This document shows positions 1-33,905 of a stretch of DNA of 64,000 nucleotides, piece after piece. Origin of the DNA: an uncultured Acidimicrobiaceae bacterium (GTDB lineage Bacteria > Actinomycetota > Acidimicrobiia > Spongiisociales > SHLN01); contig CAMYMH010000007.1 of NCBI GenBank assembly GCA_947259275.1, forward strand, positions 1 to 64,000, written 5' to 3'. Position 1 is the first letter of the stretch. Each line of letters begins with the position of its first letter. A program made the position numbers and the translations under genes. The notes beneath the pieces were generated by a model that saw only the letters and a list, made by a program, of their open reading frames with translations, had not been told where the DNA came from and ran no database searches.

Positions 1-3000
1 TCCGGATCAGTCGCCGGAGTAGAACCCACCGCCGTCCCCACAACCGAACCCTGCGCAATCGGACCAAACGAATACGACGCCGCCGACAACTCCGGCGGAT
101 CGTTGATGTCAGTAAACGTAGCCGTCACGCCGATATCGGAATTCATGACAATGGTGCACGACGGCCCCGCCCCCGGGCACCCAGCACCGGTCCAGTCCTC
201 AAAGGTCGACCCGGCCAGAGGACTCGCGGTGAGCGTCACGCTGGTTCCGGCCCCGTAAAGGTCCGAGCAATCCAGGCCGCAGTTGATCCCGACGCCCGAA
301 ACCGTCCCTGCTCCGGTTCCGTTCTTGAGCACCGTCAACAGGAACCGATCGTCAATCACGATCGTGAACGGATCTGGCGCGCTGTCCGCCCCGCTGTTAT
401 CCGTCACCACCAGATTCCCGTTGTAGGTCCCAGAGGACACGTACACGTGGGTCGGGCTCTGCTGGGTAGAGGTATTCCCGTCCCCAAACGTCCACAGGTA
501 GGAGGCGATGGTCCCGTCCACATCCGATCCCGACCCGATGAACGCCACGTTCTGGCCCTCAAACCCGGATGCCGGTGCCGTCGCATCAGCAACCGGGGGA
601 TCGTTGCGCGGGTCTACCGCCAGGTTCACCGTGGCCGGTGCCGAGAACACCGTCCCGTCGTTGACCCGGAACTGGAACGAATCACTCGTCGTCTCCGAAC
701 CATCATGCAAGTAGGTGATCGATGCTGAGGTGGGTCCCGTCGAGGTCGGTCCGCTGGTTATCGACCCATTGGCCGGCCCGGGACCGAATAAAGAAAACGT
801 CAGCGGATCACCATCCAAATCGGACCCGGTTACGGTGAAGGTCACTGGATTTCCCTCCGGAACCCCCGGCGTGGTTCCGTTGGCGATCGGTATCCGGTTC
901 GAATTGGAGACGGTCCAGGTGAAGGTATCGGTGTCCGAGCGAGCCGGGGAACCGTTGTCGGTCACCGTTACGGTCACGGTGTAGACGCCGGAGGACTCGA
1001 AGCCGAGCGTGCCGGAGATGAGGCCGCTGCTTGGGCTGATGGAAATTCCCTGTGGTAACGCGTTCGCCGACCAGGTGAGATCATCACCGTCGAGATCGGT
1101 CGCCTCGGTCGAGATGCTGACCGTATCACCCTCATCGTGGAACCGGTCGGGCAGCACCTGATTGAAGGTTGGCGGCTGGTTGGTGTTGGCGACGAAGATG
1201 GTGAATAGCCTGGTGTCGGTCAGGCCGTCGGGGTCGGTTACGGTCACAGTCACCAGCGAGCTTCCCGCATCGGTGAAGCCGGGGGTTCCCCCGATGGTGA
1301 TGGTTCCATCGCCGCTGGCGGTGATCGACGCCCAATTCGGCAGGCCGCTGGCGCTCATCGTCAGGACATCGAGGTCCGGGTCGGTAGCCGTAGCGGTCAC
1401 ACTGAACGGCGTCCCCTCAGCGGCGTTCTGGTTGGTGATCGAGTTGAGCACCGGCGGGTTGTTGACGGAACCGATGATGGGCACCGACAGGACCGCACCC
1501 CCACTGTACGTGATGTCCAGGCTGCCGGTCTTGTCGCCGGGGAAACCCGGCACGAACTGTATCTGAGCGGTGACGCTGGTTCCCGGCGGCAGCACGTCGC
1601 CGGCCGCGGGACCGCTCAACAGTGTGAAACGCCCGGCGTTTGGCCCACCGATGGCGACCGACTGGATGACGACGCTGGGGATGCCGGCGCCCCCGCCGTG
1701 GACGATCTCGACCTCGCCAGTCGTGGTCTCGGTGGTCAGAACCGGCCCCAGCGTCAGCGAGACCGGCTCGGACGTGAGGACGGCGTTTCCTACCTTCTCG
1801 ACCACCTCCACCCCGTGCAAAGCCGGCAAGTTCTTCCCCGGTATCGGCCATAGATCGACGTCGAGACGCCCCCCGGTGGCGTTGGTCTCGATCGGGATCA
1901 TGATCGCCTTGTTCTTGCCGGCCCGGGCATAGATGTCCAGGTCGTTGATGGCGAGGCCGCCCTCCACCACGACGTCAAACACCCGGACGCCGGCGGCGTT
2001 GTGGACCGCCTCCATGAAGTACAGGCGGACCTCGTATGGCCCATCGGGCACGGGGAGGTCGTAGGAGAGCCGCACAGTCGTAGACCCGAACCGTTCGGTC
2101 CGCAGCATGTCGAGCGGTGTCCCCGGCGGCAGCGATCGATCGCCGGCATCGATCGCTTGGACCACGGTGAAGGAACCGTTTGGCGTCCCGGGTACGAGGT
2201 ATGGATCGTCGGCTTCCCAGGAGAATTGCCCAACGACGTCTTCACCGCCGGAATTCAACCGGTATCGGATGACATCATCGGCGGCGGCGACGAGGTCGAC
2301 CTCCAGCGGGTTGGCTCGCCCAAAGTACTCCACCCAGAGCCGGGCATCGACAACTCCCGATCGGCTCGGCCGATACTCGACGACCACTTGTGAGGTCTGG
2401 CCGGGCAGCAGGGTCTGGGCCGAACCGCCTGAGACGATGACGAACTGATCACTGTCGGGGCCGACCACCCGCGCGCCGACCACGCTCACACTGGCAGTTG
2501 CCGGCTCCCCAAGATGGACCACGGTGATGGTGCGTTGCACGGTGTCGCCAACCGCGATCGAACCGAAAGTCGCTTCGGTCGGGCTCGACCCAAGCGTCCA
2601 CCACTTGGGGGTCGGGGTGATCTCGATGCCCTGGATGGCCGGTGAGTTGACCAGCTGAGTGAGGTCGATGTCGAGGTTGGCGTCGCTCACGACATCGAAG
2701 CTGCGCACGATCCCGTTATTGGCTCCGGCGACGGCAAAGATGTCAAAACTGGAAAGGACCTCGACCCCCTCGATTTTGACATCGAACAGGCGAGCACCAA
2801 CCGACTGGGTGTCCGGGAAGGTCTCCGCGAAGTACAGATTGACCTGGTAGGAACCGGGCGTGACCGGGAAGTCCCATGCTTGCTGACCGAACCGGTAGCT
2901 CTCGTATACCTCGTCGGGAGCAGTGGGACCGGAAACGGTGGTGCCGGCCCCGGGGCCGATGCTGCCGCCCGGGCTGTATGGGCTGTCCGCACCCCAGTCG

Positions 3001-3065
3001 TCGATGGGATCTCCGCCGGCATTGACCCGGTAGGCGCCCTCGCCGGTCAGGTTCACGAACATCTG
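1..3065 (-). pseudogene. Continuation of the giant surface protein after the in-frame amber: malectin-like, choice-of-anchor, cadherin-like, PKD and InlB-like domains (runs off window)
   Basis: I read every codon of this frame from 3065 down to 3 and found no further stop. Order of domains: end of a choice-of-anchor D strand; malectin-like domain (AYRVNAGG start, ~3030-2610); ASH-like domain; second malectin-like domain (YRLNSGGEDVV, ~2270-1815); third ASH-like domain; two cadherin/He-PIG-like domains (NPPVLNSITNQNAAEG; QPPTFNQVLPDRFHDEGD); an Ig-like domain (IPIANGTTPGVPEGN); a PKD domain with YLWTFGDGNTS; an InlB-type repeat with SGVGINCGLDCS; and the start of another cadherin-like domain at the window edge. 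The domains point to carbohydrate or cell-surface adhesion outside the cell. An ATG at 3062 follows the stop by one codon, but it lacks a Shine-Dalgarno sequence and sits mid-domain. Confidence 0.75.
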
Positions 3066-4136
3066 CTAGTTAACGCCAGTATGCCGGATACGCATGAAAG
3101 TCTGGTTCAGCCCGAGCGCGGTTGGGGCCAGGGTCACCTCGACATTGCGAGTCTCACCAAACCCGATTTGGGGGTCGGCGAGGGGAGCGACGCTGAAATT
3201 GGCTGAGTTGCCGCCCGTGAAGTTGATCGAGGTGATCCGCAGGTCGATGTCACCGCTGTCTCCGCCGAAGCTCAGTTGCACCGTGCCGGTGCCGGTTGCG
3301 CCCAGCCCAACCGGCCCGAGTGCCAGCTCGCTCGGGGCGTTGAGTGAGGCAGATCGAGACTCGAGATCTCCTCCCACCGGGGTCCAGCCGCGCTGTCCGA
3401 ATACCAGCGTCTCGTCGGCCGGTCCGGTTGAGTTGGTGTTGCGGAGGTAGAACCGGGTTTCGGGAGGTCGGAAGATGCCAACCGTGTCGACCCCGTCGCC
3501 GTCCCAGTCATCCGGAACGAACTCGTCGCTGGGGATGCCGTAGAAGAAATCATTCGCGGTGGCCGCAACGGGGCCAACCGGGTTCTCGTTGGTGTAGAAG
3601 ACCTGGCCGCTGCTGTTGCGATAGATGCCGGGGGTATCGATGCCGTCCCCGTCCCAGTCCCCGGCGAAGGGCCGGTCCCCTGCCACTCCGAAGAAGTATT
3701 CGATGTCGGCCACGCCGGTGGTGAGGCTGTTGCGGAGGAATACCTTGCCGTTGCGGTAGATGCCGAGGGTGTCGCAGCCATCGCCGTTCCAGTCGCCGGC
3801 GATCGGCTGGTCGCCGGGGAGGCCGAAAAAGAAAGTGATCTCGCCGATTGCGATGCCGCCGTTGAGTGGATTCTCATTGGTGAGGTAGACGAAACCATCC
3901 TGCCGGAACAGCCCGGGCGTGTCGACGCCATCGCAGTTCCAATCGCCCAGGAAAGGAGTGTCCCCGGGAGTGCCGAAGTAGAAGGACCGTTGGCTGCCGT
4001 CGGGCTCGCGGAGGTGCCATTGACCGCTGCTGGTGTCGACCATTCCCACTTCGGCATCGCCTGCCAGCGCCGGCGAAATCATCGCCAGCATCAGTCCGGC
4101 AATGGCGCCAAGAACCGTTAGTACTCGCCTCGCCAA
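3066..4136 (-). CDS. Secreted FG-GAP/calcium-loop repeat protein, N-terminal part of a giant surface protein ended by an amber codon
   Basis: The reading frame begins at a TTG and has 356 residues. Residues 1-25 are a signal peptide ending near ALAGD. Residues ~45-255 hold about five repeats of ~45 residues, each with a GDWDGDGxDTxGIYR-like calcium loop, as in FG-GAP/VCBS blades. From ~265 a choice-of-anchor D (ASH-like) domain starts but stops after HTGVN at a TAG. The same frame then stays open for the remaining 3 kb to the window edge, and the next residues (FVNLTGEG) are what normally completes this domain. The 356-residue product is therefore probably a truncated form of a larger exported protein, not a complete one. 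The open frame is certain; whether the stop is biological is not known. Confidence 0.8.
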   Translation of the reverse strand: MARRVLTVLGAIAGLMLAMISPALAGDAEVGMVDTSSGQWHLREPDGSQRSFYFGTPGDTPFLGDWNCDGVDTPGLFRQDGFVYLTNENPLNGGIAIGEITFFFGLPGDQPIAGDWNGDGCDTLGIYRNGKVFLRNSLTTGVADIEYFFGVAGDRPFAGDWDGDGIDTPGIYRNSSGQVFYTNENPVGPVAATANDFFYGIPSDEFVPDDWDGDGVDTVGIFRPPETRFYLRNTNSTGPADETLVFGQRGWTPVGGDLESRSASLNAPSELALGPVGLGATGTGTVQLSFGGDSGDIDLRITSINFTGGNSANFSVAPLADPQIGFGETRNVEVTLAPTALGLNQTFMRIRHTGVN

Positions 4137-4302
4137 CGCAACTCCACTACTCGCCCGCGGTTAGAACCCCTCGTGGAAAAACATAGCCCATGTCGGCCAC
4201 TTGCGCATAGACCAGAACGTGGGTCTGGCGACCCTTTTTCCTCGCCGGAGGCCGTCACCGAATAGGCTGCTCGGCGCACGCTGACATCAACGGGGAGGAG
4301 TC

Positions 4303-4890
4303 ATGGAGTTCTCGGAGACCGTACGACGACGCCGCATGGTGCGCAATTACCTCCCGGACCCGGTTCCCGCCGACGTGCTCGACCGGGTGCTCGACCGGGC
4401 TCGCCGGGCCCCGAGCGCCGGTTTTACCCAGGCCCAGAGTTTCGTGGCGGTGACCGGCGCCGACCGGCGGGCGGAGATCGCCCGGCTCGCCCACGAGGAT
4501 GAGTATGTGGCCGCCGGATTCGACCCCTGGTTGTCGCTCGCCCCGGTTCACGTGATCATTTGCACCAGTGAGGCGGCCTACCGCGCTCGATACTCGGAGC
4601 CGGATAAGGCAGGTGCCGCCGACGCCCAGGACTGGCCGGTGCCGTACTGGTATGTCGACGCCGGGGCGTCGCTCATGCTGTTGCTGCTGGCGGCGGTCGA
4701 CGAGGGATTGGCCGCCGGCTTCGCGGGGTCGCACAGCCTGGCGGGAATTCAAGAGCTGCTTGGCATTCCACCCGAAGTGATGCCAATCGGGCTCGTCACC
4801 CTCGGCTACCCGGCGCCGGATCGCCGCTCAGGATCACTCGCCCGGGGATGGAAGCCGATCGAGGGGGTTGTGCACCGCGAGCGGTGGTAG
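4303..4890 (+). CDS. Nitroreductase family protein
   Basis: 195 residues; ATG preceded by a strong GGGGAGG at 4291-4297. The N-terminus FSETVRRRRMVRNYLPDPVP and the following RRAPSAGFTQAQ are the FMN-phosphate-binding region typical of nitroreductases, which are homodimeric FMN enzymes reducing nitro groups, quinones or flavins with NAD(P)H. The middle holds a long hydrophobic helix (ASLMLLLLAAVDEGL) and the C-terminus LGIPPEVMPIGLVTLGYPAPD, the usual end of the fold. The substrate cannot be read from sequence. It stands alone: divergent from the surface protein and convergent with a broken small gene whose stop abuts its own. Family assignment is firm. Confidence 0.85.
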   Translation: MEFSETVRRRRMVRNYLPDPVPADVLDRVLDRARRAPSAGFTQAQSFVAVTGADRRAEIARLAHEDEYVAAGFDPWLSLAPVHVIICTSEAAYRARYSEPDKAGAADAQDWPVPYWYVDAGASLMLLLLAAVDEGLAAGFAGSHSLAGIQELLGIPPEVMPIGLVTLGYPAPDRRSGSLARGWKPIEGVVHRERW

Positions 4891-5095
4891 TCAGCCCGCC
4901 AGCCGTTGCGGTTCGTCGTGGATGGCCGGCTCCGCGATCGGGAAGTTCACGATGAAGCGGGCTTCGCCGTCCGCCCGCTCGTAGGCGGCATCGCTTCGGC
5001 GAGGAAAGCTCTTCGAGGTGATAGGCCAGGGCCTCGGCGTCGGCCCGGGCAGCCGTCAAGAGGTCCTCCACCATCGGCTGAGCCGTCCTCGCCAC
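4891..5095 (-). pseudogene. Small frameshifted gene remnant (~67 codons)
   Basis: On the minus strand a GTG at 5095 opens a helical stretch ([20 protein letters not shown], then [10 protein letters not shown]) that turns into arginine-rich nonsense at about 5010. One frame over, protein-like sequence resumes ([19 protein letters not shown]) and ends at a TGA at 4891-4893, directly beside the nitroreductase stop. Joining the two halves needs a single-base indel near 5005-5020. I do not recognise the family. It may be a genuine small gene with a sequencing error or a decayed one. Confidence 0.45.
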
Positions 5096-5149
5096 AAGCG
5101 GGCAATTGGCCTACGCTGTTTTTCACGTATTCAGATCGATCGGAGAGAC

Positions 5150-6343
5150 ATGACAAGCTCGAGGACTTTCTCCTCGGAGTCGGTGACCGAGGGTCATCCC
5201 GACAAGATGGCCGACCAGATCTCTGATGCGATCCTCGACGCCATCCTCACCCAGGATTCGTCGAGCCGGGTGGCGTGCGAGACCCTCCTCACCACCGGTC
5301 TGGTTCTGGTCGCCGGCGAGATCACCACTGAGGCATACGTGGACATGGCCGCCATTGCCCGCGACACCATCATGGACATCGGGTACGACCGGGAGGACTA
5401 CGGCTTCGACGGAGCCACCTGCGGCGTCATGGTGTCGATCGATGAACAATCGCCCGATATCGCCCAGGGAGTCGACGCCTCCGAAGAACTCCGCTCCGGC
5501 AGCGCCCTCACCGAAGACGACCTCGATCGCCAGGGAGCCGGCGATCAGGGCATGATGTTCGGATACGCGACCACCGAAACCGACCCCCTCATGCCGATGC
5601 CGATTCACATCGCCCACCGGCTGGCCGAGCGCCTCACCGAAGTTCGCAAGGATGGCACCCTCCCTTACCTGCGGCCGGACGGCAAGACCCAGGTGACCTT
5701 CGACTATGACGGCGACCGGCCGGCTCGGGTCCGCACCGTACTCATCTCCACCCAGCATGACGACGGGATCGACCGTGACGGCACCATTCGTCCCGACCTC
5801 ATCGAGCACGTAATCAAGCCCGTCATCCCGGAGGAATTCGCCAACGACCCGATCGAGGTGATCATCAATCCGACCGGCCGGTTTGTCATCGGCGGGCCGG
5901 TGGGCGACGCGGGCCTGACCGGTCGCAAGATCATCGTTGACACCTACGGCGGCTCGGCCCGCCACGGGGGAGGTGCCTTCTCGGGGAAGGATCCCTCCAA
6001 GGTCGACCGTTCCGGCGCCTACGCCACTCGTTGGGTGGCCAAGAATGTGGTGGCTTCCGGAGCCGCCAGCCGCTGCGAGCTGCAGGTGGCTTATGCCATT
6101 GGAGTGGCCCACCCGGTCTCGATCATGGTGGACACCTTCGGAACCGAGAACGCCGATCCCGAGAACATCGAGAAGGCGATCCGGGAGATCTTCGACTTGA
6201 GACCGGCCGCCATCCTGCGCGATCTCGACCTGCGACGGCCCATCTATCGCCGGACGGCCGCCTACGGCCACTTCGGGCGGGATGGCTTCCCGTGGGAAGA
6301 GACGAACCGGACCGACGATCTCCGCTCGGCGCTGGGGTTATAG
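5150..6343 (+). CDS. metK: S-adenosylmethionine synthetase
   Basis: 397 residues, the usual MetK length, from the ATG at 5150; a longer open frame upstream is not conserved-looking. It makes S-adenosylmethionine from methionine and ATP with release of phosphate and pyrophosphate, in the cytoplasm, as a tetramer. Visible signatures: the N-terminal [19 protein letters not shown] (methionine/ATP site with His16), [12 protein letters not shown], the phosphate loop [16 protein letters not shown], and [18 protein letters not shown]. It ends with a TAG. It lies 188 bases upstream of the corrinoid methyltransferase operon in the same orientation, a sensible neighbour for methyl-group metabolism, though co-transcription is only inferred. 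I saw no SAM riboswitch in its leader. Confidence 0.96.
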
Positions 6344-18230: not shown

Positions 18231-19778
18231 TCAAGATGGGGGCATCGCGCCCCCCTCGGCCGTCCGCCGTTTCACGAAGTCGTCGAGCTCTGCTCGAATC
18301 GAGCCGTCGAGGGGGGGCGGCTCGAAGTCGGCGACAATCCGTTTCCAGATCGGGTTGGCTCGCTGGGCGGCCGTCTGCGAGCCCGCTTCGGTCCACTGTC
18401 CGAAGTTCTGGCGCGTGAACACGATCGGCTCATAGAACGCCGAGTCGTAGCGCTCCAGCGTGTGATCCGTCCCGAAGAAGTGACCCCCGGGCTCGACTGC
18501 TCCGATGGCGTCGACTCCGATCTCAGCTTCCGACGTTTCCACCGACCGGAAGACCTCGGCGAACATCTGGACCATTTCGACATCGAGGATGTACTTCTCG
18601 AACGATGCGCTGAGGCCCGACTCGATCCACCCGGCGGCATGGATGATGATGTTGGCACCGGCCAGAACCGCGCCCATCATGTTCATCATCGTTTCGTAGC
18701 CGGCCTGGGCATCGGCCACCACGGAAGTGCTTACCGCCGATGATCGCCAGGGAAGTCCGATCAGGCGGGCCAGCTGCCCACTGGCCAGGGCGGCCTTGAC
18801 GGCTTCAGGTGTTCCGAAGGCGGGCGCACCGGACCGCATGTCCACGTTGGACGTGAAGGCTCCGTACACGACCGGTGCCCCCGGTCGAACGACCTGAGCG
18901 AGGGTGATGCCGGCGAGCGCCTCGGCATGCTGGAGCGTGAGGGCTCCCGACAGCGTCACCGGCGCCATCGCCCCGGCCAGCGTGAAAGGCGTGATCACCG
19001 ACACCTGGTTGGCCTCGGCAAACTGGATGATGCCGAGACACATCGGCACGTCCAGCTGGCGGGGTGAATTGGTGTTGATGATCGTGAAGCAGTGGGCCCG
19101 GGTCGCGAACTCATCCTCGGTGAGGCCGTGAACGATGCGGGTCATCTCGAAGCAGTCCGCCACCTTCTCCCGCCCGCGGGCGTAGATGAACGGCGCCTTG
19201 TCGCTCAATGTCAGCATCGCCGTGGTGGTGGCGAGGTGCCGCACTGCCAGCGGCACATCTTGTGGTTCCACTACCGGATCGTTGGTGTGAATGACGTCGA
19301 AGTGCTGCGCGAGCCGCACGAAGTTCTCGAAGTCCTCCAGGGTCCCGGTTTGCCTCCCCCGGTCGAGGTCGGTGGCATGGGGGGGACCGCCGGCCGGAAT
19401 CATCACCACGTTGCGACCCCCAACCGTGACCCGCCGGGTTGGATTTCGCGGGGTGATGTCAAACTCTGCCGGAGCCGCCGACAGCGAGGCGGCTACCAGG
19501 TCGGGATCGAATCGCACCAGTTGCTCGTCCTCGTCGACGGTGGCCCCGGCGGATCTCAATCGGGAGCGCGCCTCCGGCAGCAGAACGCGAATCCCGTGGT
19601 CGGCCAGCACTTGCAGGGCGGCCTGGTGAATGTCCACAACCTGGGAATCGTCCAGCACCCGGAGCGGGGGATATGGGTTGACCAGGCGCCGATAGTGAGC
19701 CGTCGCCGGCGCTGAGACTTCCCGGTCCTTCCGTCCCCGGCGCCGCCCGCGGGCGCGGTCCGCTTGGCTCGCTGCCAT
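18231..19778 (-). CDS. MttB-family (trimethylamine/glycine betaine:corrinoid) methyltransferase, paralogue 1
   Basis: 515 residues from the ATG at 19778; a start at 19868 would add 30 unlikely residues. After a basic leader (RARGRRRGRKDREV) comes the MttB barrel: NPYPPLRVLDDSQVVDIHQA, VLADHGIRVLLPEARSRL, INTNSPRQLDVPMCLGI, TPFTLAGAMAPVTLSGAL, GAFTSNVDMRSGAPAFGTPE, and DAIGAVEPGGHFFGTDHTLE. These enzymes move a methyl from a quaternary amine to a corrinoid protein. No UAG occurs in frame, so it is a non-pyrrolysine member like glycine betaine methyltransferase MtgB. It heads the operon with soxBDAG and shares long identical stretches with the MttB at 32370-33905. On the minus strand a TATTAT hexamer at 19803-19808 is a possible -10 box. 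Confidence 0.9.
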   Translation of the reverse strand: MAASQADRARGRRRGRKDREVSAPATAHYRRLVNPYPPLRVLDDSQVVDIHQAALQVLADHGIRVLLPEARSRLRSAGATVDEDEQLVRFDPDLVAASLSAAPAEFDITPRNPTRRVTVGGRNVVMIPAGGPPHATDLDRGRQTGTLEDFENFVRLAQHFDVIHTNDPVVEPQDVPLAVRHLATTTAMLTLSDKAPFIYARGREKVADCFEMTRIVHGLTEDEFATRAHCFTIINTNSPRQLDVPMCLGIIQFAEANQVSVITPFTLAGAMAPVTLSGALTLQHAEALAGITLAQVVRPGAPVVYGAFTSNVDMRSGAPAFGTPEAVKAALASGQLARLIGLPWRSSAVSTSVVADAQAGYETMMNMMGAVLAGANIIIHAAGWIESGLSASFEKYILDVEMVQMFAEVFRSVETSEAEIGVDAIGAVEPGGHFFGTDHTLERYDSAFYEPIVFTRQNFGQWTEAGSQTAAQRANPIWKRIVADFEPPPLDGSIRAELDDFVKRRTAEGGAMPPS

Positions 19779-19945
19779 CAGGCAACCACTCGCCGGGGAT
19801 CGATAATACGAGTCTTCGCCCGACCGCGGCTCGACCAGGGCAGGATCGCGGCTGCCGTCATACTCCAATCCTTCCGTCTAGAGGGCCGGGTTACTCTATT
19901 CCGGACTGGAGCACGGAGGCAGCTGCACCCGACGAGGAGGCAACG

Positions 19946-32129: not shown

Positions 32130-32369
32130 CGCTGGCCTCCTAGCCCGTGACTTGGCCCTCGGAACCACGCGGGGGGTCCTGGGGACCTGGCTAGCACCCT
32201 ACCCGATCGCATGAGACATGTGCCAGCCGCCGCGGTCAGGACCGGATCTCATTGCCCGGCGCGACCTGATTTTCGCGAGCTGCCAGTGGCATCACCGCGC
32301 CGGGTCCTGATTCTGGGTAGCGTCAGTCCATGCGCACACACTCCACATTCGGATCCCGGCGCCACGACC

Positions 32370-33905
32370 TTGGCTGACGCGAGCGAACGGGCAGCACGGC
32401 GGGAATCCCGACGCAAGCGGCGGAGCCAAGGCATCCAGCAACTGCCTTGGCGCACGCTCACCAACCCGTATGAGCCGATCGCGGTTGCTTCCGAGGACCA
32501 GATCGAGGCGATCCACGACGCCTCGATGCGCATCCTCGAAGAAACCGGCATGGATTTCCTTCATCCGGAAGCCTTGGAAATCCTGTCGACGGCCGGAGCG
32601 GAGGTGACGCCCGGGACCCAGCGGGTGCGTCTCGACCGGCACCTGGTCGAGGAGGTGGTGTCGTCGGCCCCGGAGTCCTTCCACCTGCATGCCCGCAACC
32701 CGGAACACGACCTGGTGATGGGGCCCGGGTCGATCAATTTCGGGATGATCGCCAGCCCGCCGAACTCCTCCGACGCCGACGGGGGGCGCCGTACCGGCAA
32801 CTTCACGGACTACTGCAACTTCCTCCGCCTGGGACAAGCGTTCAACGTCATTCACTTCTTTGGCGGCTATCCGGTGGAACCGGTCGACCTGCCACCCGGA
32901 ACCCGCCACCTCGATTGTCTATCCGCCTTCCTGACACTGACCGACAAGGTGTTCCATGCCTACTCGCTCGGTAGGCAGCGCATCCTCGATGCGCTGGAGA
33001 TCGTACGAATCGGCTACGGCTTGACGGAATCGGAGCTGAAAGACCAGCCGTCGATGATCACGGTCGTCAACTCCTCCTCTCCCCTGCGATTGGACGGTCC
33101 CATGATCGAAGGCCTGGTCGAGATGGCCAGGATGAATCAGCCGGTGGTGGCGACGCCGTTCACGCTCTCGGGTGCCATGGCGCCCGTCACGCTGGCGGGG
33201 GCCATCGCCCAGCAGAACGCAGAAGCGTTGGCCATGATCACTCTGACCCAACTGGCGAACCCCGGCGCTCCGTCGGTTTACGGCGCCTTCACTTCCAACG
33301 TCGACATGAAATCGGGTGCGCCCGCCTTCGGCACGCCGGAATTCACCCGGGCCGCCCTGGTTGGAGGCCAGCTCGCCCGCCGCTATCGGATCCCGTACCG
33401 ATCGACGGGCGGTACCGCGGCCAAGGCAGTCGATGCTCAGGCTGCCTACGAGAGCCAGATGTCACTGTGGGGCGCAGTCATGGGCCATGCCGCGCTGATC
33501 TTGCACGGGGCGGGATGGATGGAGGGAAGCCTGGTGGCGTCGTTCGAGAAATTCATCATCGATGTCGAGATGCTGCAGATGATGGCCGAATTCCTGCAAG
33601 GACTGGCCGTGGACGACGACGAACTGGCGGTCGACGTCATCGCCGAGGTTGGGCCCGGCGGCCACTTCTTCGGTGCCGCCCACACCCTGGAGCGATACGA
33701 GACGGCGTTCTATGCCCCCCTGGTCTCCGATTGGAACAACTACGAGACCTGGCTGGAAGCCGGCGGCGAAACCGCCGACCAGCGTGCCAACCGACTGTGG
33801 AAGCAAGCCCTCGCCGAGTTCGAGCCGCCGCCGTTGCCGGACGACCGCCGGGCGGAGTTGGAGGAGTTCGTTGCCCACCGCAAACAAGAGGGCGGCGTCG
33901 GATAA
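32370..33905 (+). CDS. MttB-family (trimethylamine/glycine betaine:corrinoid) methyltransferase, paralogue 2
   Basis: 511 residues from the TTG at 32370; a start at 32211 would add 53 non-family residues. N-terminus has a basic stretch ESRRKRRSQGIQQ, then LTNPYEPIAVASEDQIEAIH, FLHPEALEILSTAGAEV, VTPFTL-like ATPFTLSGAMAPVTLAGAI, VYGAFTSNVDMKSGAPAFGT and EVGPGGHFFGAAHTLERYE. It is a clear paralogue of the protein at 18231-19778, with near-identical active-site strands and no in-frame UAG. It is divergent from the substrate-binding protein, sharing 240 bases that probably hold both promoters. It may serve a second methylated substrate, using the one corrinoid protein seen here or another elsewhere. 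Confidence 0.9.
   Translation: MADASERAARRESRRKRRSQGIQQLPWRTLTNPYEPIAVASEDQIEAIHDASMRILEETGMDFLHPEALEILSTAGAEVTPGTQRVRLDRHLVEEVVSSAPESFHLHARNPEHDLVMGPGSINFGMIASPPNSSDADGGRRTGNFTDYCNFLRLGQAFNVIHFFGGYPVEPVDLPPGTRHLDCLSAFLTLTDKVFHAYSLGRQRILDALEIVRIGYGLTESELKDQPSMITVVNSSSPLRLDGPMIEGLVEMARMNQPVVATPFTLSGAMAPVTLAGAIAQQNAEALAMITLTQLANPGAPSVYGAFTSNVDMKSGAPAFGTPEFTRAALVGGQLARRYRIPYRSTGGTAAKAVDAQAAYESQMSLWGAVMGHAALILHGAGWMEGSLVASFEKFIIDVEMLQMMAEFLQGLAVDDDELAVDVIAEVGPGGHFFGAAHTLERYETAFYAPLVSDWNNYETWLEAGGETADQRANRLWKQALAEFEPPPLPDDRRAELEEFVAHRKQEGGVG

Follow-up and report, generated by a model that had tools for sequence, protein, structure and literature searches.

A single in-frame TAG, absent from three orthologues and followed by an intact coding stretch, divides a gene whose product, to judge from its sequence, is probably a long, secreted, surface-exposed multidomain protein; the reading that we favor, with some reserve, is that this TAG represents a very young nonsense allele of that gene. 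According to this reading, a conserved sense codon would have mutated to TAG and ribosomes starting at position 4136 would halt at it, releasing a 356-residue stub composed of a signal peptide, a propeller-like repeat domain and a choice-of-anchor D domain deprived of its last strand, while the remainder, of at least 1021 codons, would be left untranslated or be weakly translated via re-initiation. We infer both the reality of the base and this fate of the products.

The window, i.e., the whole stretch of 64,000 nucleotides analyzed, corresponds to the initial 64 kb of contig 7 (G000:C7:1-64000) of a draft genome (G000) that consists of 97 contigs totaling 3.85 Mb and is 94.87% complete. Translation of positions 2-4136 of the minus strand yields 1378 codons with only one stop, the TAG at 3066-3068 (codon 357), as a previous sequence-only reading had claimed for the frame running from 4136 to the edge; an in-frame TAA closes the frame upstream, and no start codon precedes the TTG at 4136. 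The same reading had reported more than 1000 codons without decay after the stop; indeed, domains are recognized downstream and 1021 codons are open up to the window edge where, given the base composition of the stretch, ~27 stops would be expected by chance (probability of an open frame ~1e-12), the remaining five frames containing 8 to 51 stops each. The window edge being also the contig edge, the gene is incomplete at its C-terminal side, and the word "giant" in the description of its product as a giant surface protein is based on an incomplete gene. The features of the locus are the following:

3069-4136, minus strand: upstream open piece of 356 codons with TTG start (translation, profile searches)
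about 4136-4059, minus strand: signal-peptide-like start (by eye)
about 4058-3357, minus strand: repeat domain, modeled as all-beta
3350-3069, minus strand: initial part of a choice-of-anchor D domain (NF012200, below cut-off)
3066-3068, minus strand: in-frame TAG, codon 357 (translation; absent from 3/3 orthologues)
3060-3062, minus strand: possible re-initiation ATG, three bases after the stop
3-3065, minus strand: downstream open piece of 1021 codons running off the contig, with the end of the anchor-D domain, two malectin stretches, anchor-D, He_PIG, Big_9, PKD and Flg_new_2
1854-2261, minus strand: malectin domain, best of two stretches (PF11721, 118.3 bits for the protein)
2328-2588, minus strand: choice-of-anchor D, best stretch in the downstream piece (NF012200)
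906-1175, minus strand: He_PIG domain, best of two stretches (PF05345)
360-605, minus strand: PKD domain (PF18911)
4303-4890, plus strand: divergent nitroreductase-like neighbor
5018-6343, plus strand: metK, ending in TAG (587 bits)

The TAG lies, as had been proposed, inside a choice-of-anchor D domain: the piece upstream of it covers positions 17-96 of the NF012200 profile, which is 108 positions long, but, taken alone, scores 25.6 bits, below the cut-off of 45, whereas the downstream piece exceeds this value (47.5 bits). The strand FVNLTGEG, said to follow the stop directly, is present after it, but two codons intervene. A search of solved structures by sequence with the upstream piece gave no matches. 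The model of the repeat domain, built from three sequences (mean pLDDT 69.7), has an all-beta fold, its best Foldseek match being a chain of a Streptomyces griseus UmbA4 complex (E 2.3e-08, TMq 0.58), followed by propeller lectins and integrin alpha chains, which we take to be FG-GAP-type beta-propellers; the model, which is only moderate, suggests that this N-terminal domain is propeller-like. The domain content of the gene is the same as that of secreted proteins carrying choice-of-anchor D (NF012200), malectin (PF11721) and PKD domains, from which it differs in being split by a stop, in having its C-terminal end beyond the contig and in possessing an N-terminal repeat domain that has no match in Pfam.

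The repeat domain (3357-4058, minus strand) belongs to a lineage-expanded family with 36 matches in G000 and 17 to 34 in each congener (n=4), and constitutes a C-terminal module in those copies that were read. TAG is found inside 17 matches to the upstream piece, six of which were read (C2, C59 and C4 of G000, C125 of G002, C140 and C146 of G004) and rejected as TAG-bearing relatives, all being natural C-terminal stops after the repeat domain; two G000 matches containing TAA (C25 and C38) are natural gene ends as well.

Of 40 related genomes searched for the downstream piece, its own included, 24 gave matches, and a search for the upstream piece in the five genomes of the genus gave matches in all five. 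In the congener G003 the two pieces lie in one frame beside the same nitroreductase-like gene (76% identity) and metK (85%) and are thus syntenic; a single frame likewise comprises both pieces in G005 and G007, which belong to the same family. In the comparison with related genomes, which the sequence-only reading had advocated for close ones, the site is in all three orthologues a sense codon, specifying the same amino acid in each, and the frames are stop-free past it. Identity to G003 amounts to 201/354 residues before the TAG and 589/944 after it. At the codon directly following the TAG (3063-3065, minus strand), G000 likewise differs from an amino acid shared by all three orthologues, a change that we cannot assign to either the nonsense allele or a base error. 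Among named relatives, the seven that match the downstream piece best include six uncultured Acidimicrobiia or Acidimicrobiaceae. Another in-frame stop, a TAA, is held by G006:C94, the only such case among the downstream-piece matches listed.

A collapsed repeat or paralogue was rejected as a source of artefact, no other DNA match in G000 covering the stop. In a search for the missing end of the gene, the first 400 bases of the contig matched nothing else in G000; positions 1-4200 yielded no tandem repeat. Viral contigs contain no other copy of the site (0 matches), and in the genome_contigs scan, in which 79 loci were kept, only L047 matched the upstream piece, through residues 24-259, i.e., short of the stop.

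The age of the stop can be constrained from what has not happened after it. Of the 9189 possible single changes in the downstream piece, 213 would create a further stop and none has occurred, which places an upper bound on the neutral divergence since the TAG of about 0.011-0.048 per site at 95%, the range being set by the indel rate assumed. Lineage-specific changes, defined as positions at which the other three orthologues agree and the genome tested differs, are evenly distributed in G000 (21/139 before the TAG, 26/187 after it, p 0.75). This test is noisy, since the stop-free G003 is itself uneven (35/153 before, 21/182 after, p 0.008), unlike G005 (3/121 vs 12/173, p 0.109) and G007 (5/123 vs 10/171, p 0.597). 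With respect to G003, Ka is 0.36 before the TAG and 0.29 after it; the corresponding values of Ks, 1.15 and 1.10, are near saturation. Ka is higher after the site with respect to G005 (0.69 against 0.50) and G007 (0.66 against 0.50), but this excess separates the stop-free lineages and G000 alike and therefore does not date the stop. The GC content at the three codon positions is alike before and after the TAG. In sum, either the downstream part has had no measurable time free of selection, or the TAG is not real. As to the criteria for a young pseudogene, the stop is absent from the orthologues (3/3) and there is little or no further decay.

Belinky et al. (2021; PMC7918605) report that in-frame stops in bacterial genes are mostly short-lived, which fits a recent nonsense allele. 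The cases described there resemble the present one in that a single in-frame stop interrupts a frame otherwise intact and constrained, with no other degradation, but they were shared by at least two genomes to exclude artefacts, whereas the TAG considered here is known from one genome and could be an artefact. The same paper (PMC7918605) also argues that many genes with in-frame stops are still functional by readthrough, an argument that counts against the nonsense-allele reading and for which a small probability is kept for readthrough.

Recent loss of function, suppression and a wrong base were the three options left by the sequence-only reading; the first and the last fit all findings, whereas suppression is unsupported. 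That the TAG is a consensus base error of the draft assembly, the gene being intact in the organism, seems to us possible though rather unlikely. All evidence for the nonsense allele fits such an error equally well: no decay follows the TAG, the draft is fragmented into its 97 contigs, the contig breaks off within this very gene, as do those of the three orthologues (C66 of G003, C321 of G005 and C96 of G007), and no other recognized stop of this kind, apart from a TGA in a DUF3179 gene (see below), was encountered in 519 kb. On the other hand, the TAG is located 3 kb away from the contig end and not at the end itself, and the adjacent codon is altered too; a pair of errors so few bases apart would be improbable, though the change in that codon may have arisen by ordinary substitution.

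Very little credence can be given to the hypothesis that the stop is suppressed or leaky, readthrough yielding the full protein in addition to a short secreted form. It would account for a post-TAG frame that is intact and constrained like the pre-TAG frame, but the TAG is not conserved (0/3 orthologues) and the means to read it were not found. No CUA anticodon is present among 47 tRNA hits, the great majority of which were named by ARAGORN, none of whose 45 distinct tRNAs has this anticodon, while three weak hits that it left unnamed carry CAU; the genome being 94.87% complete, such a tRNA could be missing from the assembly. The one weak hit of the PylS profile in G000 scores 23.3 bits against a cut-off of 178.15, and the two MttB homologues are uninterrupted, with 337 and 322 bits, below the cut-off of 525 of the pyrrolysine-type model. 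The tRNA-Sec reads UGA (anticodon TCA), and in a search confined to local folding no stimulatory RNA structure was detected after the TAG (z -0.32, 67/200 shuffles folding as well). Furthermore, as the sequence-only reading had maintained with metK as its example, TAG is a normal stop in this genome, terminating 114 of the 311 gene-like frames that end in a stop within the 519 kb sampled. Amber recoding and pyrrolysine decoding were accordingly rejected as unsupported by the tRNA, PylS and MttB searches; nothing points to a special readthrough mechanism for this TAG and the case is an ordinary one. Even more improbable is a leaky switch in which most ribosomes would release the propeller-like stub and a minority would make the full surface protein, the efficiency of termination setting the ratio of the two forms. 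The MttB-type genes devoid of a pyrrolysine TAG are located at 18231-19868 (minus strand) and 32211-33905 (plus strand), with sarcosine-oxidase-like genes near the former.

Hardly more can be said for two coupled genes, with termination at the TAG and re-initiation at the ATG that begins three bases past it (3062-3060, minus strand). The position of this ATG and the frequency of tandem same-frame genes in G000 would suit such an arrangement, but the junction would fall inside a single domain, the ATG is, by eye, neither preceded by a Shine-Dalgarno-like sequence nor followed by a signal peptide, and the frame is single and continuous in 3/3 orthologues. The young nonsense allele thus remains the reading that we prefer. 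Its effect would mainly concern annotation, a pipeline being expected to call two genes or a pseudogene where the relatives have one protein, and its wider import is small.

Whether an in-frame stop of a draft genome is accidental or recoded can be judged in practice by two features, its recurrence in relatives and the presence of a decoding tRNA, as another gene of the same genome illustrates. The DUF3179 gene of G000:C38 (L186, 237-1274, minus strand) also has an in-frame stop within a conserved domain, a TGA at L186 879-881, the two halves matching PF11376 in turn. A second DUF3179 copy with TGA is present in G000 (C19:81515-81973), and altogether a TGA lies inside the match in 13 instances from 11 of the 40 genomes, the C38 copy being the one inspected residue by residue; G000:C8:11478-11568 encodes a tRNA-Sec (anticodon TCA). 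Tables of PMC9312934 and PMC13188914 include DUF3179 among the selenoprotein families, and the DUF3179 genes with an in-frame TGA are probably selenoproteins. Thus, the DUF3179 gene has both recurrence and tRNA whereas the TAG in the surface-protein gene has neither.

The two genes also stand together in a survey of split frames over the 519 kb, for which a strict version of the codon score was used and which dealt with stops only. Coding quality was seen to continue in frame across a stop at 19 places; 17 of these were judged by eye to be tandem genes or non-coding tails, and at the other two, the TAG-bearing gene and DUF3179, the stop interrupts what is otherwise one protein.
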